Translations under genes and position numbers: made by a program | Source of the DNA: Magnetospirillum sp. | GTDB lineage: Bacteria; Pseudomonadota; Alphaproteobacteria; CACIAM-22H2 | Direction: 5' to 3' | Assembly (NCBI GenBank): GCA_027532905.1 | Contig: JAPZUA010000002.1 | Coordinates: forward strand, 248,001 to 312,000 | DNA length: 64,000 bases | Notes under the pieces: model-generated | Told to the model about the DNA's origin: nothing | The model's input: only the letters and a program-made list of their open reading frames with translations | The model's database searches: none | Shown: positions 29,728 through 40,901 of the stretch, in pieces | Position numbering within the stretch: the first letter of the stretch is position 1 | Layout: each line of letters opens with the position of its first letter

Positions 29728-31794
29728 TTAGCGCTTGGGCGTGGTCTGCTGCTCGGCCGCGCGCTTGGCGCGCTCGTTTTCGCGCAGATCGTCTTCGGTC
29801 GTGCGCGTGAGCGGGCGCGGCGGGCCCGCAAACGGATCGATCGCGGCTTCGGCCTGGCGGATCAGGCGGCAGTCCTCGCACATGCGGATGCGCTCGACCA
29901 CTTCGGGCTTCTGGAACATCCAATGTTTGTCGGCGAGTTTGGCCGTGACGTTTTCGATCGCCGACAGCGTGCCGAAGGGCTTGCCGCAACGCACGCAGCA
30001 GGCGGGCTCTTCTTCTTTGACGAGGGCAGGCGACTTTGCGACCGAGGTGAAATCGAGCTGCGGCTTCAGCTGAATGACCTTCTCGGGGCATGTCGCCTTG
30101 CACAGGCCGCACTGCACGCAAGCTTCCTGGATGAAGCGCAGCTGCGGCATGTCGGGATTGTCGATGAGCGCACCTGTCGGGCACGTGCCCACGCACGAGA
30201 GGCACAACGTGCAGCCGGCCGTGTCGATCGCGAGCGTGCCGAAGGGCGAGCCTGCGGCCAGCGGCAGCACATCGACGGGGGCAGGCGCCACCTCGTGCAG
30301 ATGGCGCAAGGCGAGCAAGGTCACTTCGCGCTTACCGCCCGTGGGCAGGAAGCCGCCTTGCTTGGGTGCGGCCGCAACCTTTGTGCCGTAGAGCAAAGCT
30401 TCGACCGTTTCGGGATCGGCATCGTCGATGATCGCAACGCGCCCTTCGCCGAAGCCGAGGCCCGACATGGCCGTCTCGGCAAGGCCGATTTGGCCTGCGA
30501 GGCCCGCAAGCTCGTCGCGCTTTTCGGGATCGACGAGCAGGCGCACTTGGGCGGCCCCGAAGGCCAATGCGCAGGCCATAAAGTCGAAACCTACTTGCGT
30601 GATTTCGTTGACCGCAAACGGCAGCACATGGGCGGGCAGGCCGCGGCCGTGGCGCGCGATCATGTCGATCACTTCTTCGCCGTGCTTGCCGTCATGCACG
30701 AGCAGCACCGCACGACTGCCGCCAGCACGCCCATAGGCCACGAGCAGCGTGCGCAACCGATCGAGCACCGTGTCTTTTTCCGGCAGCGCGTAGGTCGCAG
30801 CCCCCGTCGGGCACACGGACGCACAACTGCCGCAGCCCGCGCACACATACGGATCGATGTCGACATGGTCGCCCGCCGAGGCGATGGCACCGGTCGGGCA
30901 CACATCGAGGCAGCGATTGCAGCCTTTCTTGGTGTTGCGGCTATGCGTGCAGATATCGGCCTGGTAGGCGATGTAGCGCGGCTTCTCGAACTCGCCGATC
31001 ATGTCGGACGCGGCGTAGATTGCGCGCTCGACGGCGGCGGGGTCCTTGGGATCGGCGCGGAAATAGCCGTCGCGCTTTTCGTGCGCCTGGAACAAAGGCG
31101 TTCCGCCGGTGAGGTCGAGGATGATGTCGCATTTGGACGACGCCCCGTCGCGCGCGCGTTCGAAACCGAGTTGGCCGCGCGAAGCGGGCAGGGCCGGCGC
31201 ATAGTCGTCGACGGTGATTTCGAAAGCGCCCAGATGGCCCTTGGCGCGCGCGATGGTGCCGCGGAAGATCGGCACGTCGGTCAGGCGCGGCGGTGCCACG
31301 GAGGCGGGCTTGGTCAGCAGCACCGTGCAGTCGAGGCGGGCACCCAAGCGCTTGGCCGCCGCGATCGCGGTCTCGTCGCGCCCGTAGACGAGGGCGATCC
31401 CTTGCGAGCGCATCGACACGCTTGCAGTGGGCGGCACGTCGATCGCGGCTTCGGCCAGCAATGCCGCGATCTTCGGCATGGCCTTGTCGGCTTCCTCCGA
31501 CCAGCCCGCGCGCTCGCGGATATTGACGAAGCGAATATTGTTGTCGAGCCCGAGCTCGGCGCGCGTCTCGGCGAAGAAGGGGGCTTCCTGTGTGCACGCG
31601 ACCACGAGCTCGCGGCCCTTCTTGAGGGCGGCTTCGAAATTGCCGATCTGCGCGCGGCACAACAGCGTACCGGGGGCGACTTCGCCGACGTCGTTGCCGA
31701 CGGCCGCCGTGCAGGCTTTGCGCAGGGCCTTGCCGTCGAGCGGCATGGTGCCCGTGCAGTCGCAGACCAGAACCGTTTTGCCGTCGATTTCCAT
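29728..31794 (-). CDS. Multi-cluster 4Fe-4S protein of formate dehydrogenase island
   Basis: A 688-residue soluble protein. Two ferredoxin-like cluster pairs are visible: [13 protein letters not shown] and [14 protein letters not shown] near residues 290-330, and [14 protein letters not shown] and [14 protein letters not shown] near residues 528-571. A further CCVRCG and a final CEDC are present, plus early VLVCDCTGT. Proteins like this sit beside formate dehydrogenase genes and may pass electrons or aid assembly; the exact role is unknown. The ATG at 31794 was chosen over a codon 14 residues upstream. It diverges from fdhD across 121 bases. Confidence 0.82.
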
Positions 31795-31915
31795 GGGTGC
31801 TTTCGGGGGGCGGAATCCTCGGCCGTTATGTGGCAAAGCCGGGCGGTACGATCAAGGCGTTTCTTTGGCAACGCACCCCTTGAACCGCCGCACATTGGGG
31901 GCCATTCTCGCGCGC
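31795..31915. promoter_or_regulatory. Divergent promoter region of the formate dehydrogenase island
   Basis: These 121 bases lie between the leftward ferredoxin-like gene and the rightward fdhD gene and must hold the promoters of both arms. I see no clear -35/-10 pair and no inverted repeat long enough to call an operator. Confidence 0.4.
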
Positions 31916-32791
31916 ATGGCAAACGAATTCCTGCTTATGCCCGATCCCGCCGATGCGCGGCTCGTGGCGCGCGTCTCCGGCATCGACCAGACGGGGGCGG
32001 CCGTCGAAACCTCGGTCGTCGCCGAAAAGCCGCTCACGCTCTATTTGAATGCGCGCGAGATCGTCACGATGATGACGATCGGCGACTATCCCGAATATCT
32101 CGCCCTTGGCTATCTCCTGAACCAGAACATGCTGCCCGCCGACGCGCGCGTGACGGGTGTCGAGTTCGATGCCGAGCTCGACGTGGTCGTGGTGCGCACG
32201 GATCGCGAGACCGACTTCGAAGACAAGCTGCGCAAGAAGACGCTGACCTCGGGCTGCGCGCAAGGGACCGCATTCGGCGATCTCATGGAAAAATTCGACA
32301 ATGTCGCCCTCGACAAAGCGGCACGGCTCAAGACCTCGCAGCTCTACCGCCTGTTGCGCACGATCAACACCGCTCCCTCGCTCTATCTTGAAGCAGGGGC
32401 GATACATGGCTGCGTGCTGTGTGCGGCCGACCGCGCCCTTGTCTATATGGAGGATGTCGGGCGCCACAATGCGGTCGACAAGATCGCGGGCTACATGTAT
32501 CGCCACGACCTTGCGCCGCACGACAAGATTTTCTACACGACCGGCCGTCTGACGTCGGAAATGGTGATCAAGACCGTGCAGATGGGGATTCCGATTTTGG
32601 TGTCGCGTTCGGGCTTCACGGCCTGGGGGGTCGAGCTTGCGCGCAAAGCCGGGCTCACATTGATCGGCCGCGCGCGCGGCAGCCGTTTTGTCGTGCTGGC
32701 GGCGCCCGAGCGCATCGTGTTCGACGCCAGTGCGCGCGAAGCGGCCGAAGAAGACGCCAAGCTGCGTCGCAAGGGCTCGGAAGATGGCTGA
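31916..32791 (+). CDS. fdhD: FdhD, sulfur carrier for formate dehydrogenase
   Basis: FdhD passes sulfur from a cysteine desulfurase to the molybdenum cofactor of formate dehydrogenase. The 291-residue product has LTSGCAQGTAF near residue 114 and the family motif EDVGRHNAVDKIAG near residue 180. The E. coli protein has a CxxC at the first site; here only one Cys (Cys114) remains there, while a separate GCVLC occurs near residue 166. The ATG at 31916 was taken by homology of the first residues. Its end overlaps mobA by eight bases. Confidence 0.94.
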   Translation: MANEFLLMPDPADARLVARVSGIDQTGAAVETSVVAEKPLTLYLNAREIVTMMTIGDYPEYLALGYLLNQNMLPADARVTGVEFDAELDVVVVRTDRETDFEDKLRKKTLTSGCAQGTAFGDLMEKFDNVALDKAARLKTSQLYRLLRTINTAPSLYLEAGAIHGCVLCAADRALVYMEDVGRHNAVDKIAGYMYRHDLAPHDKIFYTTGRLTSEMVIKTVQMGIPILVSRSGFTAWGVELARKAGLTLIGRARGSRFVVLAAPERIVFDASAREAAEEDAKLRRKGSEDG

Positions 32792-33404
32792 GGCGATCGC
32801 GGGCGTGGTGTTGGCGGGCGGCCAGTCGACGCGCATGGGCGGGGGCGACAAATGCCTGCGCGATCTGGGCGGCCAGCCGATCCTGGCGCATATTCTGGCG
32901 CGCGCCGCACCGCAGGTTTCCGCCCTCGTGCTGAACGCCAATGGCGACGCTTCGCGTTTTTCGGCCTTTGGCCTGCCGGTCGTTGGCGACAGCGTGCCAG
33001 ATTTCGCAGGCCCGCTTGCCGGCATTCTGGCTGGGCTCGATTGGGCGGCGGTGCACGCGCCTGCGTCCCGCTATGTCGCGAGCTTTGCGGCCGACGCCCC
33101 CTTCTTGCCGCGCGATCTCGTGGCACGTTTTGCGGCGGCGGTTGCGCACGAAGGGGCGGACCTTGCATGTGCGATGTCCGGCGGCCAAGCGCATCCGGTA
33201 TTCGGCCTGTGGCGCGTCGATCTGCGCGAAGCGCTGCGCCATGCGCTTGTGACCGAAAAAATCTTCAAGGTCGATCGCTGGACGGCGCGGTATAAGGTTG
33301 CCATGGTTACGTTCGACACGAAACCCTTCGATCCGTTTTTCAACGCCAATCGGCCCGACGATCTGGCGGCCGCCCACGATCTGCTGGCGCTTGCAAACAC
33401 ATGA
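32784..33404 (+). CDS. mobA: Molybdenum cofactor guanylyltransferase MobA
   Basis: MobA joins GMP to molybdopterin, giving the bis-MGD cofactor that formate dehydrogenases need. The 206-residue protein has the nucleotide-binding LAGGQSTRMGGGDK near residues 9-22, ending with a NRPDDLAAA segment. The start overlaps the fdhD stop (ATGGCTGA), and its stop overlaps the next start, so it belongs to the fdh operon. Confidence 0.93.
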   Translation: MAEAIAGVVLAGGQSTRMGGGDKCLRDLGGQPILAHILARAAPQVSALVLNANGDASRFSAFGLPVVGDSVPDFAGPLAGILAGLDWAAVHAPASRYVASFAADAPFLPRDLVARFAAAVAHEGADLACAMSGGQAHPVFGLWRVDLREALRHALVTEKIFKVDRWTARYKVAMVTFDTKPFDPFFNANRPDDLAAAHDLLALANT

Positions 33405-33970
33405 ACACGCCCGATCCGCAAATCATTCCGCCTAAAGACGCGCAGCTTTCGATCGGCGTGCTCGTGGCCCAGTCGCCGCCGCGCACCGCGTGGGGCGAAC
33501 CGCAATGGCGGCCGCATTCGGTCGTGCTGGGCGGCGTTTCGTTGGCCCCCTGGACTGAATTGCGCCGCGAAGAAGATACGACGATCTGGTATGCGGGCGA
33601 GTTCCCGATCGCGTTGTTCGTGGCCGAGACCGTGACATATCGCATGAACCTCGCCGAGCCGGTGCCGGCCGTCTATGTCGTGCTGCGCCGCGATCCGTCG
33701 CTGCCGCCGCCCGGCATTGTCGTGCGTCACGTCACGGTCAGTCCCGGCGAGGCGGAAGCCTATTCGGTCGACGGCGAGCATATCGTCGAGAAAGTGCCGA
33801 TGCCCGAAGCGCTGATGGCGTGGCTCGGCGACTATGTACGCGCCTACCATGTCGAAGAAGTGTTCAAGAAGCGCAAGCGCACGCGCATCGATCCGAACAA
33901 AGGTTTCGCCAAGGGGGCGGAGGGCAACGAGTACGGCGCTTCCTTCGCGCAGAAGGAAAACAATGGCTGA
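33401..33970 (+). CDS. DUF3305 family protein
   Basis: A 189-residue protein of a family regularly found in formate dehydrogenase clusters. It lacks signal peptide and membrane segments. Conserved-looking blocks are IGVLVAQSP, WRPHSVVLGG, YRMNLAEPVPAVYVVLRRD and a basic FKKRKRTRIDPNKGF segment near the end. It overlaps mobA (ATGA) and the DUF3306 gene. An assembly or maturation role is inferred from context only. Confidence 0.82.
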   Translation: MNTPDPQIIPPKDAQLSIGVLVAQSPPRTAWGEPQWRPHSVVLGGVSLAPWTELRREEDTTIWYAGEFPIALFVAETVTYRMNLAEPVPAVYVVLRRDPSLPPPGIVVRHVTVSPGEAEAYSVDGEHIVEKVPMPEALMAWLGDYVRAYHVEEVFKKRKRTRIDPNKGFAKGAEGNEYGASFAQKENNG

Positions 33971-34514
33971 CGCCGAGCGCCCGCGCGAAGGTTTTGCCGG
34001 CCGCTGGTCGCGCCTCAAAGCCGAGGCGCGCGCCGTACCGCCCGCACCGGCACCTGCGGCCGAAGCCGAGCCTGTACCGGCCGCAATCGCGCTCGCGACC
34101 GAAACAACGCCGCCGGAGAAATCCGAAAAACCGGCGGAGACGGCCGTCACGCCGAAGACCGAATTGCCGCCGCTTGAGACGCTGACCAAGGATTCGGATT
34201 TTTCGCTGTTTATGAACAAGGACGTCGCCGACGACACGCGCAAGCTTGCCTTGCGCAAGCTGTGGACGATGGATCCGCATTTCGCGACGATCGACATTTC
34301 CGAATGCCATTCGATCGATTTCAATGCCGTTCCGACTTTCCCGAACGGGCTGTTGAACACAATTTATCGTGTGGGGTCGGGCATGGTTGAAGCGGTCGAG
34401 GAGATCGAACGCAAGGAAGCGGCCGACAAAATTGCCGCTGACAAGGCTGCCGCCGCACAAATCGCAACGGCACCGGCGGATTCGCAGGCCAAGGCCACCG
34501 ACGAACCGAGTTGA
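33963..34514 (+). CDS. DUF3306 family protein
   Basis: A 183-residue protein. After an amino-terminal Pro/Ala-rich stretch (residues 20-65) comes a conserved core: DFSLFMNKDVADDTRKLALRK then LWTMDPHFATID, the mark of DUF3306. The tail is a highly charged Ala-rich helix. It overlaps the DUF3305 gene by eight bases; the two families travel together in fdh clusters. Function unknown. A nested stem-loop follows the stop at once. Confidence 0.82.
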   Translation: MADAERPREGFAGRWSRLKAEARAVPPAPAPAAEAEPVPAAIALATETTPPEKSEKPAETAVTPKTELPPLETLTKDSDFSLFMNKDVADDTRKLALRKLWTMDPHFATIDISECHSIDFNAVPTFPNGLLNTIYRVGSGMVEAVEEIERKEAADKIAADKAAAAQIATAPADSQAKATDEPS

Positions 34515-34555
34515 GGGCCTTTGCTGCATTGCAGCAATTCTGCGTATCAAGGCCC
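34515..34555 (+). repeat. Nested stem-loop after the DUF3306 gene
   Basis: GGGCCTT (34515-34521) can pair with AAGGCCC (34549-34555). Inside lies a near-perfect palindrome, TTGCTGCATTGCAGCAA, at 34521-34537. There is no T-run, so it may act in RNA processing, as an attenuator, or its palindrome may be a protein-binding site. Confidence 0.55.
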
Positions 34556-34586
34556 GTCAACAAACGCTTTTGTATGCTGCACTGCA
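34522..34586. promoter_or_regulatory. Two copies of TGCTGCAYTGCA, 53 bp apart
   Basis: TGCTGCATTGCA at 34522-34533 recurs as TGCTGCACTGCA at 34575-34586. The 53-bp step is close to five helical turns, so the sites face the same side of DNA. They lie upstream of a gene with a Cro-like DNA-binding domain and may be operators for it. Confidence 0.4.
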
Positions 34587-34613
34587 CACGGTATCCGGCG
34601 ATGTTGCGGCCTC

Positions 34614-34642
34614 TTGACAGCGGTATCGTGCTGTCGCATAGG
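34614..34642 (+). promoter_or_regulatory. Possible sigma70-type promoter for the HTH-TorD/fdh operon
   Basis: A perfect TTGACA (34614-34619) is followed after 17 bases by CATAGG (34637-34642), a weak -10. A promoter here would start the HTH-TorD and formate dehydrogenase genes separately from fdhD, with a leader of about 160 bases to the GTG start. The 34515-34810 gap contains no other gene that I can support; a GGGG-CAA-CCCC mini-hairpin sits just before the start. Confidence 0.42.
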
Positions 34643-34810
34643 TTAGGTGTCTGATCGTTGAAACTACACAACAAAAACGCGTTTCGCGGTCTGCAAGTTC
34701 CGGTACCAAGAAGCAAGAACACACGCGAGAAACTGACAGTTTTCAATGCCAGTGCGTCCAGTCGAAATCGTTGCGTTTGGCGTTACAAACCGCTTTGTGG
34801 GGCAACCCCG

Positions 34811-35704
34811 GTGAGCGAGAGCCCAGCCATTGTGCGCAGCCTTGCGGCCCTTGAGCTCGCGATCGAGCGAGCGGGGGGGCAGTCGGCATTGGCGCGCGCC
34901 ATCGGCAAATCGCAGGGCCATGTGTGGCATTGGGTAAAGGTCGCCAAACGCGCGCCGGCCGAAGCCGTACTCGCCATTGAAACCGCAACCGGCGTATCGC
35001 GTTCGGAACTGCGCCCCGACGTTTATCCGTCGACAAGCATCGACGCATCCGACTTTATCGTGACGCCCGCCGCCGTCGAAGCCGAGGAAATCGAAATCGA
35101 CGAAGACGAGTTGCTGCGCGCGCAATGGTACGCGTTGCTCGGCGAATTGTTGGCGCAAGCGCCGGACGAAGCGTTCCTGGCACGCCTTGCCGCCCTCGGC
35201 GGCGACGACAGCGAGCTTGGCGGCCATGTCGCAGCTCTTGCCAAGACAGCGCAACGCACGACGGTCGAGCAGGTGCGCGAGGAATTCCACGATCTGTTCA
35301 TCGGCCTGTCGCAGGGCGAGCTTTTGCCCTACGCGTCCTACTATCTGACGGGCTTCCTGCACGAAAAGCCGCTCGCCAATTTGCGCGGCGCCATGGCCGA
35401 ACTGGGCATCGTGCGCGCGTCCAACCGCCCCGAGCCCGAGGACCACATCGCCTCTTTGTGCGAGACCATGGCCGGGCTCATCGTTGGCGCTTTCGGCAAG
35501 CCCGCGTCGCTTGCGACGCAGCGCGCGTTCTTCGCGGCGCATATTGCGCCGTGGGCAGAAAAACTCTTCGCCGATTTGGCGGCCGCCAAATCGGCCCGGC
35601 TCTACATGCCGGTCGGCCAGATCGGCCGCATCTTCATCGAGATCGAAAACGCCGCCTTCGCAATGGACGAAGGCGACCAACCGCACGAACCGAATAACGG
35701 ATAG
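34811..35704 (+). CDS. Fusion of Cro/YdaS-type HTH with TorD-family chaperone
   Basis: The 297-residue product combines two domains. Residues about 8-60 read as a Cro/YdaS-like helix-turn-helix (ALELAIERAGGQSALARAIG, then KSQGHVWHWVKVAKRAPAEAV). Residues about 100-290 read as a TorD/DmsD-type chaperone: RAQWYALLGELLAQAP, FHDLFIGLSQGELLPYASYYLTG, EDHIASLCETMAGL. TorD proteins bind the Tat signal of molybdoenzymes and hold them until cofactor is inserted; the next genes encode such an enzyme. The fused HTH suggests that chaperone occupancy may control transcription. GTG at 34811 was chosen because conserved sequence begins there; a TTG at 34658 is possible. Confidence 0.8.
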   Translation: MSESPAIVRSLAALELAIERAGGQSALARAIGKSQGHVWHWVKVAKRAPAEAVLAIETATGVSRSELRPDVYPSTSIDASDFIVTPAAVEAEEIEIDEDELLRAQWYALLGELLAQAPDEAFLARLAALGGDDSELGGHVAALAKTAQRTTVEQVREEFHDLFIGLSQGELLPYASYYLTGFLHEKPLANLRGAMAELGIVRASNRPEPEDHIASLCETMAGLIVGAFGKPASLATQRAFFAAHIAPWAEKLFADLAAAKSARLYMPVGQIGRIFIEIENAAFAMDEGDQPHEPNNG

Positions 35705-35720: not shown

Positions 35721-35921
35721 ATGAGCAACAACCCAGACACCAAAGCGGCCAATCGCCGCCAGTTCTTCAAAGTCGCAGGACTTGGCGCCGTTGCGGCCGG
35801 TGCCGCAGGTGCGGGCACGATCGCGGCCCCTGCCGCCGCCAAAGCGGCCGAACCGGCGCAGGCAAGCGCCGGCTATTCGGAAACCGCGCATGTGAAGACC
35901 TATTACGCGCTCGCGAAGTAA
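35721..35921 (+). CDS. Small Tat-signal protein of formate dehydrogenase cluster
   Basis: A 66-residue protein with a twin-arginine signal, NRRQFFKVAGLGAVAAG, followed by an Ala-rich stretch with a possible cut after AKA, leaving about 27 residues (SAGYSETAHVKTYYALAK at the end). Such small Tat proteins occur right before fdh catalytic genes. It may be exported together with the enzyme or be a subunit. GAGGC precedes the ATG. 13 bases separate it from the catalytic-subunit gene. Confidence 0.8.
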   Translation: MSNNPDTKAANRRQFFKVAGLGAVAAGAAGAGTIAAPAAAKAAEPAQASAGYSETAHVKTYYALAK

Positions 35922-35934
35922 GGAGAGCCATTCG

Positions 35935-38871
35935 ATGCTGACCAAGAAATCTTCGGGCAAGGCCGTCGGCGCGCGTTTGACCGCCGCTCTTGCAGGGGCT
36001 GCCGGTGCGGCGATGGATCGTCGCGCCTTCATGCGCCGTTCGGGTCTCGTGGCGGGCGGCATTGCCGCCGCCGCCTCGCTGCAGCTCAAGACCGTCGAAG
36101 CCGCCGGTGCGGCAGCCGGTGCGCCCAAATTCGGCGTTGCCACCAAGATCGTCAAAAACATGTGCACCCACTGCTCGGTCGGTTGCACGGTGACGGCCGA
36201 AGTGCAGAACGGCGTGTGGACGGGCCAAGAGCCGTCGTTCGACTCGCCGATCAACCTGGGTGCGCATTGCGCCAAGGGTGCGGCCATCCGCGAACTCGTG
36301 CATGGCGACCGCCGTCTCAAATATCCGATGAAGCTCGTTGCCGGCAAATGGCAGCGCATGACCTGGGACCAGGCCGTTACGGAAGTGGGCGACCGCCTGC
36401 TGAAGATCCGCGAAGAGGCGGGCCCTGACTCGGTCTATTGGCTGGGTTCGGCCAAATTCACGAACGAAGCAGCATATCTCAACCGCAAATTCGCCGCCTT
36501 CTGGGGCACGAACAACATTGACCACCAGGCGCGCATTTGCCACTCGACGACGGTGGCGGGCGTTGCCCAGTCGTGGGGCTACGGTGCCCAGACCAACTCC
36601 TACAACGACATCCAGAACTCGCGCTCGATCTTCCTGATCGGCGGCAATCCGGCCGAAGCGCATCCGGTGTCGCTGTTGCACGTGCTGCGCGGCAAGGAAA
36701 ACAACCAAGCGCCGTTCATCGTGTGCGACCCGCGCTTCACGCGCACGGCCGCCCACTCGACCGAGCATGTGCGCCTGCGTCCGGGTACGGACATTCCGCT
36801 GATCTGGGGCATTCTCTGGCACGCGTTCGAAAACGGCTGGACGGACGAAGAGTTCGTCAAGCGCCGCGTCTATGGCTGGGATGACGTCAAGAAGGAAGTC
36901 GCCAAGTACAACCCCGCCGAAGTCGAGCGCATCACCGGCGTGCCGGGCACCCAGCTGCGCCGCGTGGCGCAGACGCTGTGGAACAACCGGCCCTTCACCG
37001 TGATCTGGTGCATGGGCGGCACGCAGCACACGGTGGGTTCGGCCAACGTGCGCGCCTACTGCATCCTCAACATGAACTACGGCACGATCGGCGTGGCGGG
37101 CGGCGGTACCAACATCTTCCGCGGCCACTGCAACGTGCAGGGTGCGACCGACCTCGGCCTCGATGTCTTGAACCTGCCGAACTATTACGGCCTCACCGAA
37201 CAAGCGTGGCGCCATTTTGCGCGCGGCTGGGGCGTGCCGTACGAGTACATGCTCGGCCGCTTCCGCTCGAAGGCGCTCATGGAAATGCCGGGCACACCGC
37301 AGTCGCGTTGGCATGACTTGGCACTCGAGGCCAAGGCAAACCTCACGGGCCAGCCCGACAACATCAAGGCGATGGTGTTCTGGGGCCACGGGGCCAACAC
37401 GCAGACGCGCGGTCCCGACGGCAAGAAGGCGATGGAGAAGGTCGACACGCTCGTCGTGATCGATCCGCATCCGGTCCAGATCCCGGTCATGGCGGCCGAC
37501 CGCAAGGACGGCGTCTATCTGCTGCCGGCCTGCACCTCGCTTGAAATGCGCGGCAGCCGCACGGCCTCGAACCGGTCGCTGCAGTGGGGCGAGCAGGTCG
37601 TCGATCCGATCTTCGAATCGAAGAACGACTACGAGATCATGTATCTCCTCGCCAAGAAGTTCGGTTTCGCCGAGCAGATGTTCAAGAATATCAAGGTCGA
37701 CGGCAACGTGCCGGAAGCCGAGAGCATCCTGCGCGAAATCAACCGCACTTGCTTTACGGCCGGCTATTCGGGCCAGAGCCCGGAACGCCTCAAGGCGCAC
37801 ATGGCGAACCAAGACGCGTTCGACCGGGTGAACCTCAAGGCGCTCAAGGACATCCCGGCCAAGGACGGCATGGCCGAAATCAAGAAGGGCGAGTTCTACG
37901 GTCTGCCGTGGCCGTGCTGGGGCAAGCCCGAACATCGCCACACCGGCACGCACATCCTCTACGACCAGTCGGTTCCGGTGGCTGAAGGTGGCGGCAATTT
38001 CCGCGTGCTGTTCGGCGCCGAGCGCGAGGGCGTGAGCCTGCTCGCCGACGGCCTGTTCTCGAAGGGCTCGGAGATCAAGGACGGGTACCCGGCATTTAGC
38101 TACGGCATGCTGAAGCGTCTGGGCTGGGAAGGCGAACTCACCGACGCCGAACGCGCCGAAATCCTCGAGATCGGCACGATGGTGTTCGGCGGCAACGCCG
38201 ACAACGTGCCCTGGAACTTCGACACGTCGGGCGGCCTCATGCGTGTTGCGATCGCCCACGGGTGCGACCCCAAGGGCAATGCGCGCGCGCGCGCCAACGT
38301 GTGGAACTTCCCCGATCCGGTGCCGACGCACCGCGAGCCGCTCTATTCGGCGGACCGCGAAATGGTGCGCAAGTATCCGACCTACACCGACCGCGTGCTG
38401 CACCGTCTGCCGACCCTGTTCAAGTCGATTCAGGATCGCGACGTCTCCAAGCAGTTTCCGACGATCCTCACCTCGGGCCGTCTGGTCGAGTACGAGGGCG
38501 GGGGCGACGAAACGCGTTCGAACAAGTGGCTCGCCGAACTGCAGCAGAGCATGTTCGTCGAAATCCATCCGGCCGACGCGCGCCGGATCGGCGCCAAGAA
38601 CAACGACGATGTGTGGGTGTTCGGGCCCGAGAACAACGCCAAGATCAAGGTCAAAGCGCTCGTCACTGAGCGCGTGGGCCAGGGCGTTGCCTGGATGCCC
38701 TTCCACTTCGCGGGCCATTGGATGGGCAAGGACATGCGTTCGTCCTACCCGCAAGGCACGGACCCCATCGTGCTGGGCGAAGCGGTCAACACCGTCACCA
38801 CGTACGGCTACGATCCCGTAACCCAGATGCAAGAAACCAAAACCACCTTGTGCCGCATCGAGAAGGCCTAA
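35935..38871 (+). CDS. fdhA: Formate dehydrogenase catalytic subunit (molybdopterin, Cys form)
   Basis: A 978-residue periplasmic molybdoenzyme that oxidises formate to CO2. A Tat signal is at residues 28-50 (DRRAFMRRSGLVAGG). The proximal 4Fe-4S site is Cys77, Cys80, Cys84 and Cys112. The metal ligand is Cys202 followed by His203 (HQARICHSTTVAG), in the place of selenocysteine in the E. coli enzymes. MGD-binding segments run through the chain, ending in VTTYGYDPVTQMQETK. Upstream are its chaperone and sulfuration genes, downstream the iron-sulfur and cytochrome subunits. The set resembles the membrane-bound periplasmic type (FdhABC or FdoGHI). Confidence 0.96.
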   Translation: MLTKKSSGKAVGARLTAALAGAAGAAMDRRAFMRRSGLVAGGIAAAASLQLKTVEAAGAAAGAPKFGVATKIVKNMCTHCSVGCTVTAEVQNGVWTGQEPSFDSPINLGAHCAKGAAIRELVHGDRRLKYPMKLVAGKWQRMTWDQAVTEVGDRLLKIREEAGPDSVYWLGSAKFTNEAAYLNRKFAAFWGTNNIDHQARICHSTTVAGVAQSWGYGAQTNSYNDIQNSRSIFLIGGNPAEAHPVSLLHVLRGKENNQAPFIVCDPRFTRTAAHSTEHVRLRPGTDIPLIWGILWHAFENGWTDEEFVKRRVYGWDDVKKEVAKYNPAEVERITGVPGTQLRRVAQTLWNNRPFTVIWCMGGTQHTVGSANVRAYCILNMNYGTIGVAGGGTNIFRGHCNVQGATDLGLDVLNLPNYYGLTEQAWRHFARGWGVPYEYMLGRFRSKALMEMPGTPQSRWHDLALEAKANLTGQPDNIKAMVFWGHGANTQTRGPDGKKAMEKVDTLVVIDPHPVQIPVMAADRKDGVYLLPACTSLEMRGSRTASNRSLQWGEQVVDPIFESKNDYEIMYLLAKKFGFAEQMFKNIKVDGNVPEAESILREINRTCFTAGYSGQSPERLKAHMANQDAFDRVNLKALKDIPAKDGMAEIKKGEFYGLPWPCWGKPEHRHTGTHILYDQSVPVAEGGGNFRVLFGAEREGVSLLADGLFSKGSEIKDGYPAFSYGMLKRLGWEGELTDAERAEILEIGTMVFGGNADNVPWNFDTSGGLMRVAIAHGCDPKGNARARANVWNFPDPVPTHREPLYSADREMVRKYPTYTDRVLHRLPTLFKSIQDRDVSKQFPTILTSGRLVEYEGGGDETRSNKWLAELQQSMFVEIHPADARRIGAKNNDDVWVFGPENNAKIKVKALVTERVGQGVAWMPFHFAGHWMGKDMRSSYPQGTDPIVLGEAVNTVTTYGYDPVTQMQETKTTLCRIEKA

Positions 38872-38890: not shown

Positions 38891-39487
38891 ATGGCTCGCA
38901 TGAAATTCCTGCTCGACGCCGAACGCTGCATCGAATGCAACGCTTGCGTCACCGCCTGCAAAAACGAACACGAAGTGCCGTGGGGCATCAACCGCCGCCG
39001 CGTCGTGACGCTCAACGACGGCAAACCCGGCGAGCGTTCGATCTCGATGGCGTGCATGCACTGCACGGACGCGCCCTGCATGGCCGTCTGCCCGGTCGAC
39101 TGCTTCTACAAGACGGCCGAAGGCGTGGTGCTGCACTCGAAGGATCTGTGCATCGGCTGCGGCTACTGCTTCTACGCCTGCCCGTTCGGCGCACCCCAGT
39201 ATCCGCAGGCCGGCAATTTCGGCACGCGCGGCAAGATGGACAAGTGCACCTTCTGTGCTGGCGGTCCCGAGGCTTCGACCACGGACGCCAGCTTCGCCAA
39301 GTACGGTCGCAACCGTCTGGCCGAAGGCAAGCTGCCGCTGTGCGCCGAAATGTGCTCGACCAAAGCGCTGCTCGGCGGTGACGGCGACGTCATCGCGGGC
39401 ATCTACCGCGAGCGTGTGGCCACGCGTGGCTACGGCTCGGGCGCTTGGGGCTGGGCCACGGCCTACGGCGATCCGTCGCGCACCTGA
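38891..39487 (+). CDS. fdhB: Formate dehydrogenase iron-sulfur subunit
   Basis: A 198-residue electron-transfer subunit with four 4Fe-4S motifs: CIECNACVTACKNEHE near residue 13, CMHCTDAPCMAVCPVDC near residue 57, CIGCGYCFYACPFGA near residue 85 and the split CTFC...CAEMC set near residues 119-156. It has no signal and would be exported with the Tat-bound catalytic subunit. It carries electrons to the cytochrome b subunit. No membrane anchor helix is seen, unlike E. coli FdnH. Confidence 0.95.
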   Translation: MARMKFLLDAERCIECNACVTACKNEHEVPWGINRRRVVTLNDGKPGERSISMACMHCTDAPCMAVCPVDCFYKTAEGVVLHSKDLCIGCGYCFYACPFGAPQYPQAGNFGTRGKMDKCTFCAGGPEASTTDASFAKYGRNRLAEGKLPLCAEMCSTKALLGGDGDVIAGIYRERVATRGYGSGAWGWATAYGDPSRT

Positions 39488-39771: not shown

Positions 39772-39794
39772 CGTCGGCAGGGGGGAGAGAAACC

Positions 39795-40901
39795 ATGAAA
39801 TCCGCCAACATTCTTCGTTCGCTCGTCGTCGGTGCCGCCCTGCTGGTTGCGGGCGTCGCATCGGCGCAAGCGCCGGCACCGGCACCTGCGGCACCCGCTG
39901 CAGCACCGCCGCCGGTCGTCTCGACGGCCGCACCGCCGGTGAGCCGCCTCGACGGCGTCAATCTGCCGCCCGCAGGCCCCGGCAGCTACCAGAGTCCGAG
40001 CATGCGCCCGGAAGCGGGGCTGATGTCGAACGATGCTGAATTGCTGCGCGCGTTGGCACCCACGCGCGGCCAGGTCACGATTCCGGACCAGAAGCTCGCC
40101 ACGCTGATCCAGCCCGCAGGCCGCGACTGGCGTGCGGCCGTCAAGGGCCCGATCCGCGTTTGGGGCTCGTGGCTGATTCTCGGCATGTGCTGCTTGTTGA
40201 TCGCGTTCTATCTGCTGCGCGGCAAGATCATGATCGACAGCGGCATGTCGGGCCGCACGGTCGAGCGCTTCAATTCGTTCGAGCGTTTCGTGCACTGGAT
40301 GACGGCGGGCGCCTTCGTGGTGCTGGCGATCACCGGCCTCAACATCACCTACGGGCGCTATCTGCTGCTGCCGCTGCTGGGCCCCGACGCGTTCACGTCC
40401 ATCTCGGTCGCGTTCAAGTATCTGCACAACTACCTCGCCTTCGGCTTCATGCTCGGCGTGGTGCTGATGTTCGTGCTGTGGGTGCGCCACAACATTCCGT
40501 CCAAGGTCGATCTGCAGTGGATCGCAGTCGGCGGCGGGCTGTTCACGAAGGGCGTGCATCCGCCGGCCGAGAAGTTCAATGCCGGCCAGAAAATCATCTT
40601 CTGGTCGGTGATCACGGGCGGCGTTGCCCTCAGCGTCTCGGGCGTGTGGCTGATGTTCCCGTTCTTCCTCGGCGACGTGGCCTCGATGCAGCTCATGCAG
40701 GTGATCCACGCCGTCGTCAGCCTCGTGCTGACGGCGATCGTGATCGCGCACATCTATATCGGCTCGCTCGGCATGGAGCAGGCGTTCGACGCGATGGGCA
40801 CGGGTCTCGTCGACGAGAACTGGGCCAAGGAGCATCACGGCCTGTGGCTTGCCAAACTCAAGGGCCAGGCCGCACCGCAATACAAGATGGGCCACGACTG
40901 A
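39795..40901 (+). CDS. fdhC: Formate dehydrogenase cytochrome b subunit
   Basis: A 368-residue membrane subunit. A signal peptide (about residues 1-24, ending VASAQ) is followed by a Pro/Ala-rich periplasmic part, then at least four membrane helices from residue 118 on. Conserved haem-region sequence includes NSFERFVHWMTAGAFVVLAITG, KYLHNYLAFGF and VIHAVVSLVLTAIVIAHIYIG, with the His residues expected for two b haems. It passes electrons to quinone. The ATG at 39795 follows GGGGGAGAGAAA. The operon ends at a strong terminator. Confidence 0.94.
   Translation: MKSANILRSLVVGAALLVAGVASAQAPAPAPAAPAAAPPPVVSTAAPPVSRLDGVNLPPAGPGSYQSPSMRPEAGLMSNDAELLRALAPTRGQVTIPDQKLATLIQPAGRDWRAAVKGPIRVWGSWLILGMCCLLIAFYLLRGKIMIDSGMSGRTVERFNSFERFVHWMTAGAFVVLAITGLNITYGRYLLLPLLGPDAFTSISVAFKYLHNYLAFGFMLGVVLMFVLWVRHNIPSKVDLQWIAVGGGLFTKGVHPPAEKFNAGQKIIFWSVITGGVALSVSGVWLMFPFFLGDVASMQLMQVIHAVVSLVLTAIVIAHIYIGSLGMEQAFDAMGTGLVDENWAKEHHGLWLAKLKGQAAPQYKMGHD

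Follow-up and report, generated by a model that had tools for sequence, protein, structure and literature searches.

To our knowledge, it is poorly understood how the supply of an exported metalloenzyme is matched to cofactor insertion and Tat export. In the trigger enzymes and autoregulatory fusions BirA, PutA and NadR one chain acts on a substrate and represses its own genes, and in chaperone-titration circuits such as HspR-DnaK, HrcA-GroEL and the chaperone regulators of type III secretion the load on a chaperone sets transcription. Chaperones of the TorD type carry an EPxDH motif that has a role in signal-peptide binding. The YdaS protein of the E. coli prophage CP-933P binds the intergenic region of its operon in a Cro-like manner and represses both promoters; palindromes overlap the promoters within the bound region, and the study leaves the exact binding sequence open (PMC8630535). 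A survey of the NarJ family describes the FDH-linked branch with DUF3305 and DUF3306 as DmsDfdh, and the terms helix-turn-helix, HTH, fusion, DNA binding and XRE are absent from its main text (PMC4464133). Our searches of the open-access literature returned no description of a protein that combines the two domains, in line with the initial annotation of this locus, which knew of no characterised protein of this kind.

The window, by which we mean the whole stretch of 64,000 nucleotides that was analysed, contains a gene in which a YdaS-type helix-turn-helix (HTH) domain precedes a TorD domain within a formate dehydrogenase (FDH) operon. We consider it likely that the encoded protein, HTH-TorD, is a chaperone and the repressor of its own FDH operon in one chain. 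With the YdaS/Cro phage repressors (PF15943; CP-933P YdaS, 3bd1) it shares the HTH family, the fold and the LRPD motif; unlike them it is joined to a Tat chaperone, lies in a respiratory-enzyme operon and goes with dyad types of its own. With TorD, DmsD and YcdY (PF02613) it has in common the whole chaperone fold, the EPEDH sequence and an operon with a Tat-exported molybdoenzyme, but in contrast to them it has a DNA-binding head. It differs from BirA, PutA and NadR in that its second activity is that of an export chaperone and not of an enzyme. In the circuit proposed below chaperone load would set transcription as it does in chaperone titration, whereas the known circuits divide DNA binding and chaperone function between two proteins, which one chain would combine here. 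The parts are of known kinds; their combination with a predicted operator and a wide distribution is, as far as could be seen, new. The locus comprises the following features:

31613-32791, + strand: fdhD (PF02634, 250 bits; coordinates are those of the open frame)
33401-33970, + strand: DUF3305 gene (PF11749, 119.8 bits)
33957-34514, + strand: DUF3306 gene, directly upstream of a 296-bp gap (PF11748, 75 bits)
34811-35704, + strand: HTH-TorD fusion gene, 297 codons plus stop, GTG start
34823-35032, + strand: YdaS/Cro-type HTH domain, residues 5-74 (PF15943; AlphaFold2 helices; 3bd1 match)
35033-35101, + strand: flexible linker, residues 75-97 (pLDDT below 50 at 79-91; highest dN of the three parts)
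35102-35677, + strand: TorD/DmsD-type chaperone domain, residues 98-289 (PF02613; YcdY/DmsD folds)
35721-35921, + strand: small Tat-signal protein (TIGR02811, 54.1 bits, cut-off 48.45)
35935-38871, + strand: FDH alpha subunit, the probable client (PF00384, PF01568, PF04879; twin-arginine signal RRAFMRRS)
38891-39487, + strand: FDH iron-sulphur subunit (Fer4 families)
39777-40901, + strand: FDH cytochrome b subunit (cytochrome b561; PF01292)

The initial annotation had placed an HTH and a TorD domain in one chain, and both assignments are borne out by profiles and by folds. YdaS_toxin (PF15943) matches residues 15-74 with 73.4 bits (Pfam cut-off 30) and Nitrate_red_del (PF02613) residues 132-253 with 104 bits (Pfam cut-off 22.2). 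The AlphaFold2 model, for which 53 fused proteins were aligned (mean pLDDT 87.1, pTM 0.69), predicts five HTH helices over residues 5-67, disorder at 79-91 and an all-helical C-terminal domain. Superposition of residues 9-74 of the model on the Xfaso-1 Cro protein 3bd1 gives a Z score of 11.5 and 1.1 Å over 63 residues at 40% identity, and together with the predicted helices indicates the five-helix Cro/CI fold. Structure prediction, which had been suggested as a check of residues 8-60, thus finds the HTH fold there. The C-terminal part of the model superimposes on YcdY, 1s9u and DmsD 3cw0 with Z scores of 20.0, 19.9 and 18.8, respectively. Its EPEDH sequence aligns to EPEDH of DmsD, with P209, E210, D211 and H212 invariant and E208 kept in at least 90% of the 53 fusions. 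Profile, fold, the EPxDH motif and the adjacent gene for a Tat-exported molybdoenzyme all place the protein in the TorD/DmsD group.

Pairwise comparison of the window with three close relatives indicates purifying selection on the HTH (dN/dS 0.04-0.13) and on the TorD domain (0.04-0.20), with values of 0.17-0.74 for the linker. The close relatives have ATG where the gene in the window starts with GTG. Since the whole fusion is present in 7 of the 11 genomes of the genus (the window's own counted), HTH-TorD is not an accident of assembly. Nor is it a toxin-antitoxin or prophage module, for which a small stand-alone protein near a toxin, YdaT or phage genes would be expected, because it is fused to TorD and has genes of the FDH operon on both sides.

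The neighbouring genes, assigned with Pfam and NCBIfam, confirm that the fusion lies just upstream of a Tat-exported molybdoenzyme, as had been proposed from the sequence. The best NCBIfam model for the alpha subunit is Fdh-alpha (TIGR01591), whose score of 420.9 bits lies under its cut-off of 666.25. HTH-TorD is the only match to PF02613 in the whole 4.26-Mb genome assembly; if the FDH needs a TorD-type chaperone, HTH-TorD is therefore that chaperone. The fusion as such is not needed for maturation, because an unfused TorD occupies the same operon position in many relatives, with DUF3306 upstream in 36 of 40 unfused discovery loci. A different arrangement occurs in genome G571, whose first FDH-type copy has HTH-TorD with a dyad and whose second copy has a DUF3306-TorD join according to Pfam (L115:2536-3633, - strand).

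A search for the domain pair in other genomes, also suggested with the initial annotation, detected HTH-TorD across many genera. The whole fusion is found in 10 of 23 genomes of the family. In a balanced sample of 386 genomes of the class Alphaproteobacteria, 10 carry it, and 58 of the 386 match the TorD part at an E value of 7e-54 or better. Among 397 genomes drawn from the phylum there are ten with the fusion, all in the same class. It is present in 10 of the 18 genomes of family f93, in 64 of 198 sampled genomes of family f169 and in 47 of 199 sampled genomes of family f71. Bradyrhizobium sp. 184 is a fused case with the gene order of the window (DUF3305, DUF3306, TorD, Tat peptide, FDH). 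Its annotation reads "molecular chaperone TorD family protein", the only description given to the fusion in three Bradyrhizobium plasmid records. Long TorD frames that looked fused in G616, G724, G595, G680, G396, G482 and G324 were rejected, their N-termini being arginine-rich out-of-frame sequence.

The gap upstream of HTH-TorD (34515-34810), which the initial annotation had named for a DNA-binding assay, holds two copies of the dyad ACAAA-N4-TTTGT (AC dyad) and, between them, a weak promoter candidate:

34560-34573, no strand: predicted operator 1, ACAAACGCTTTTGT, exact AC dyad
34785-34798, no strand: predicted operator 2, ACAAACCGCTTTGT, exact AC dyad, 12 nt before the start codon
34614-34642, + strand: possible sigma-70-like promoter TTGACA-N17-CATAGG, weak, read by eye

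These are the only two exact AC sites in the 64-kb window, in which four sites with at most one mismatch are found against 0.45 expected. The 4.26-Mb genome contains three exact sites, the third of which lies inside an open frame. Both dyads are exact in L032 and L034; in L033 dyad 1 is exact with another spacer and dyad 2 has one mismatch. We considered DNA looping between the dyads but do not claim it, as their spacing of 225 bp in the window and L032, 226 bp in L034 and 217 bp in L033 does not keep a constant helical phase.

To compare fused with unfused genes, dyad types were first read by eye in the gaps between DUF3306 and the fusion of 24 fused discovery loci. The fusions were split by their HTH sequence into a "WHW" type (the window's genus and family f93) and the rest. 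Along with the AC dyad we used a B dyad, CATAG-N7-CTATG, and its relaxed form NATAR-N7-YTATN, and searched for them in the 300 bp before the match. From f169 the hold-out set takes the 28 best-scoring of 64 fusions, with 5 others already in the discovery set; from f71 it takes the 29 best-scoring of 47 (3 others in the discovery set) and from f93 the 8 best-scoring of 10 (the other 2 in the discovery set). The AC motif was counted on the hold-out before the discovery rows, and the relaxed B pattern was set after the hold-out rows had been seen. L052, which has no upstream DNA, was dropped from the dyad count, and L101 and L211, which have broken frames, also from the tree. Unfused controls number 59 in the fixed-motif count and 57 in the relaxed count and the tree; the zinc-ribbon fusions L069 and L070 count among them, and near-identical rows are counted separately.

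An AC dyad with at most one mismatch precedes all 17 WHW fusions (13 exact; 9 discovery, 8 hold-out), compared with none of the 59 unfused genes and 5 of the 73 fusions of the other type. Conversely, a B dyad with at most one mismatch is found before 52 of the 73 other-type fusions (15/16 discovery, 37/57 hold-out) and before 0/59 unfused genes and 0/17 WHW fusions. With up to two mismatches the B dyad precedes 68 of the 73 against 4 of the 59. Exceptions to the strict B dyad are mostly symmetric or half-changed, e.g. GATAA-N7-TTATC, CATAA-N7-TTATG, GATAG-N7-CTATC and TATAG-N7-CTATA. The relaxed form, a pattern set post hoc, is present in 73/73 other-type fusions, and under the relaxed definition either dyad occurs before all 90 fusions and 1 of 57 unfused genes. 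HTH-TorD genes thus have a palindrome upstream of their own gene, as expected for the YdaS/Cro type, and the palindrome matches the HTH type.

Autoregulation is the simplest reading, because each HTH type has its own dyad. The proposal of the initial annotation that the protein controls its own operon is well supported at the level of comparison, by the dyads of the WHW type (17 of 17, against 0 of 59 unfused) and by the covariation described below for the other type. Judged from sequence, HTH-TorD is very probably a DNA-binding autoregulator. Space for a dyad is common before unfused genes: in 24 of 40 unfused discovery loci the DUF3306 stop and the TorD match are 140 nt or more apart, a distance that includes some coding sequence and in two of them zinc-ribbon coding. 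In Bradyrhizobium sp. 184, a record that came to light once the motif was fixed, the start codon is preceded by the relaxed dyad TATAGCCTCAACCTATT, which begins 124 nt upstream of it and has two mismatches to CATAG-N7-CTATG. All 17 WHW fusions have a dyad near the start; the window shares an upstream copy with the three relatives closest to it. As the dyad lies close before the start in every one of the 17, it may have a role at the RNA level.

The gap contains other repeats as well. Inverted repeats at 34521-34537, 34574-34590 and 34616-34635 (TTGCTGC-N3-GCAGCAA, a near copy and GACAGC-N8-GCTGTC) are conserved in close relatives. TTGCTGC-N3-GCAGCAA and GACAGC-N8-GCTGTC were our first operator candidates and were dropped because the AC dyad, and not these repeats, recurs in the second WHW-type lineage. 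The TTGACA of the candidate promoter is kept in all five compared sequences; a consensus promoter scan of the window gap found no promoter. Sigma-70 promoters over B dyads, read by eye in G047, G016 and G651 as TTGNCN-N16-TATNNN, were rejected, since the -35 score around all 73 B dyads (mean 2.68) is no better than that of the control (2.60). We do not claim promoter occlusion, because the -35 score matched the control and the scan of the gap found no promoter.

TorD domains from 90 fused and 57 unfused genes, 147 in all, were placed on a maximum-likelihood tree, the bootstrap of which had not settled completely. On this tree the fusion label has to change several times. Under the relaxed definition the dyad changes with the fusion in six of six supported independent pairs; under the strict definition it does so in a mean of 5.2 of the six and never in the opposite way. 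A sign test gives P of about 0.03 (relaxed) and a median of 0.06 (strict), six pairs being the minimum for significance.

Within the 73 non-WHW fusions, protein and DNA vary together. In the recognition helix, QP is followed by alanine in 10 and by serine or threonine in 63. Base pair 5/13 departs from the usual G·C in nine of the ten rows with alanine compared with 1 of the 63 with serine or threonine (Fisher P 1e-9, kinship ignored). For each row we took the relaxed match of highest symmetry, which in a few rows is not the best CATAG match. The symmetric variants CATAA/TTATG and GATAA/TTATC occur among the 73, and the change from S/T to A in the recognition helix accompanies a change from G·C to A·T in the predicted operator. 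Such covariation is the trace expected if the HTH reads the operator directly.

The same type of HTH is also found on a second maturation factor. MobB is the GTPase of molybdopterin guanine dinucleotide synthesis, and in seven f169 genomes it is fused to a YdaS-type HTH (tblastn on all seven, Pfam on two):

L217-L223 (G844, G810, G926, G882, G834, G912, G795): HTH-MobB loci

A B-type dyad lies upstream in two of the seven, with one mismatch in G834 and exact in G795; the other five have no B-type dyad upstream. Single dyads also occur before further genes. In G306, fdhD and a transporter-like gene are divergent, and the gap separating them holds an exact AC dyad; we take the transporter-like gene to be tupB, and its product has no Pfam family. 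In G047 an exact B dyad is found 149 nt before a homologue of this gene, and in G571 one lies 108 nt before a NuoE/FdsG-like gene. Beyond the FDH gap, exact B sites show no enrichment (23, compared with 32 for the reversed pattern that served as control, 21 genomes), and we therefore rejected a wide B-type regulon; the system looks local. Extra exact AC sites number 12 against 5 for the control (13 genomes). Inspection of 15 of the 23 B sites and 6 of the 12 AC sites revealed an evident FDH-linked target in 2 of 15 and 1 of 6, respectively, the remaining inspected sites being within open frames or before genes without an evident FDH link. In three f93 genomes (L247, L248 and L250; G219, G774 and G773) ACAAA-N4-TTTGT lies 39-66 nt before a gene that, judged by eye, resembles one for a sensor kinase and may be a second target.

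Other fusions and stand-alone domains were noted in passing. In G327 a YdaS-type HTH is fused to an enzyme of the MurA/EPSP-synthase family (L128:2002-3471, - strand), with TTACTAATTTTTTAGTAA just upstream (its own shuffle P 0.19). The half-site AGTAA of TTACTAATTTTTTAGTAA also occurs in a published YdaS-region repeat (PMC8630535), which we give as no more than a lead. An unbiased palindrome scan before seven HTH-MobB, five stand-alone YdaS and one HTH-MurA genes reached a shuffle P below 0.05 in 1 of 13 (G697), so that palindromes before single genes mean little. Elsewhere in the window's genome there is a stand-alone YdaS-type HTH of 80 residues (G000:C2:149960-150175, L126). In loci L027 and L028 (G020, G038) a YdaS-type HTH reads in frame with what seem to be MoaB, where the HTH is C-terminal, and an enzyme of NAD(P)HX repair; these may be accidents of the frame.

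A different head is found on the TorD of the FDH operon in two species of genus g94:

L119:4722-6047, - strand: zinc-ribbon-TorD, in frame
L120:3592-4881, + strand: zinc-ribbon-TorD, in frame

In two genomes of the genus, G110 and G303, TorD follows a zinc ribbon of the IS1595 type, which scores 49.4 and 56.2 bits against a cut-off of 25.4, and the two proteins are 61% identical over query residues 20-440; a third genome of g94, G216, has TorD without the zinc ribbon. Selection on the zinc-ribbon part is weak (pN 0.336, pS 0.529), with start codons unsure. The zinc ribbon is a possible independent gain of a DNA-binding head, which we give as a lead.

In our model the YdaS/Cro-like HTH would bind to the two dyads (34560-34573 and 34785-34798), probably in dimeric form, and bound HTH-TorD would hold down transcription from its own operon (HTH-torD, Tat peptide, fdhA, fdhB, fdhC). 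By analogy with YdaS and Cro proteins, DNA binding with repression rather than activation is most likely. The TorD domain would do its ordinary job of binding the Tat signal and the unfinished FDH catalytic subunit. The initial annotation suggested that the chaperone could report how much unfolded enzyme or Tat signal it holds. Such a switch of DNA binding by client occupancy is plausible, the chaperone domain being conserved, but whether it operates is, in our judgement, an evenly balanced question. As the direction of such a switch we prefer titration, which is a choice: free chaperone would repress, a backlog of cofactor-free FDH or Tat signal would remove HTH-TorD from the DNA, and chaperone and operon would then rise until the backlog is cleared. 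The few extra dyads before fdhD and the transporter-like gene point to a link with cofactor supply in some genomes.

The HTH might instead keep the operon low and constant, with TorD a passenger and no sensing of the client. The dyad evidence requires DNA binding only, the long, poorly conserved linker offers no visible route for an allosteric signal, and the count of exact B dyads outside the FDH gap (23 against 32 in the control, 21 genomes) suits so plain a circuit. We nevertheless regard it as rather unlikely, considering that the fusion is found in many genera although separate HTH and TorD proteins would do, and that the HTH also sits on MobB, another molybdenum-cofactor maturation factor. 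In addition, the cytosolic domain behind the HTH head of a one-component regulator usually carries the signal. The dyads could also belong to another regulator, with the HTH vestigial or making protein contacts, and the further conserved inverted repeats in the gap would fit this. It is highly improbable, however, given that dyad type tracks HTH type, that residue and base covary, that unfused genes have no dyad even if a long gap follows DUF3306, that a dyad precedes two HTH-MobB genes and that dN/dS of the HTH is 0.04-0.13.

If the client is sensed, its effect could be opposite to titration: HTH-TorD loaded with unfinished FDH or free Tat signal would bind DNA better, and a jam in maturation or export would shut down further FDH synthesis by negative feedback. 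This requires the same parts and is logical for an operon that makes its own client; TorD-type dimers exist (1n1c is titled dimeric TorD), so that the client could alter the oligomer. Chaperone-load circuits such as HspR and HrcA work by titration, however, and we consider the reverse direction unlikely. To the same degree we doubt that the signal is the supply of cofactor or metal (Mo/W-MGD), sensed via the chaperone domain in place of client load. The seven genomes with HTH-MobB and the exact dyads by fdhD and the transporter-like gene (G306), its homologue (G047) and the NuoE/FdsG-like gene (G571) speak for such a signal, but extra sites are few, FDH-linked targets among those inspected amount to 2 of 15 (B) and 1 of 6 (AC), and the transporter-like protein belongs to no Pfam family.

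The preferred reading of HTH-TorD as chaperone and repressor in one chain would make the operon's own chaperone its repressor, the shortest possible feedback loop. With the two dyad types, natural variants of the operator are at hand together with the changes in the recognition helix that match them. In many Alphaproteobacteria one protein probably both handles FDH and sets its amount. A wider reading, which we hold tentatively and at somewhat less than even confidence, is that HTH-TorD senses client occupancy, so that the amount of unfinished or unexported FDH directly sets how strongly the FDH operon is transcribed and, in some genomes, genes for metal or cofactor supply as well, and that molybdoenzyme maturation factors have repeatedly been wired to DNA. 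Were this true, the HTH on MobB and the zinc ribbon on the g94 TorD would be further instances of such direct wiring.
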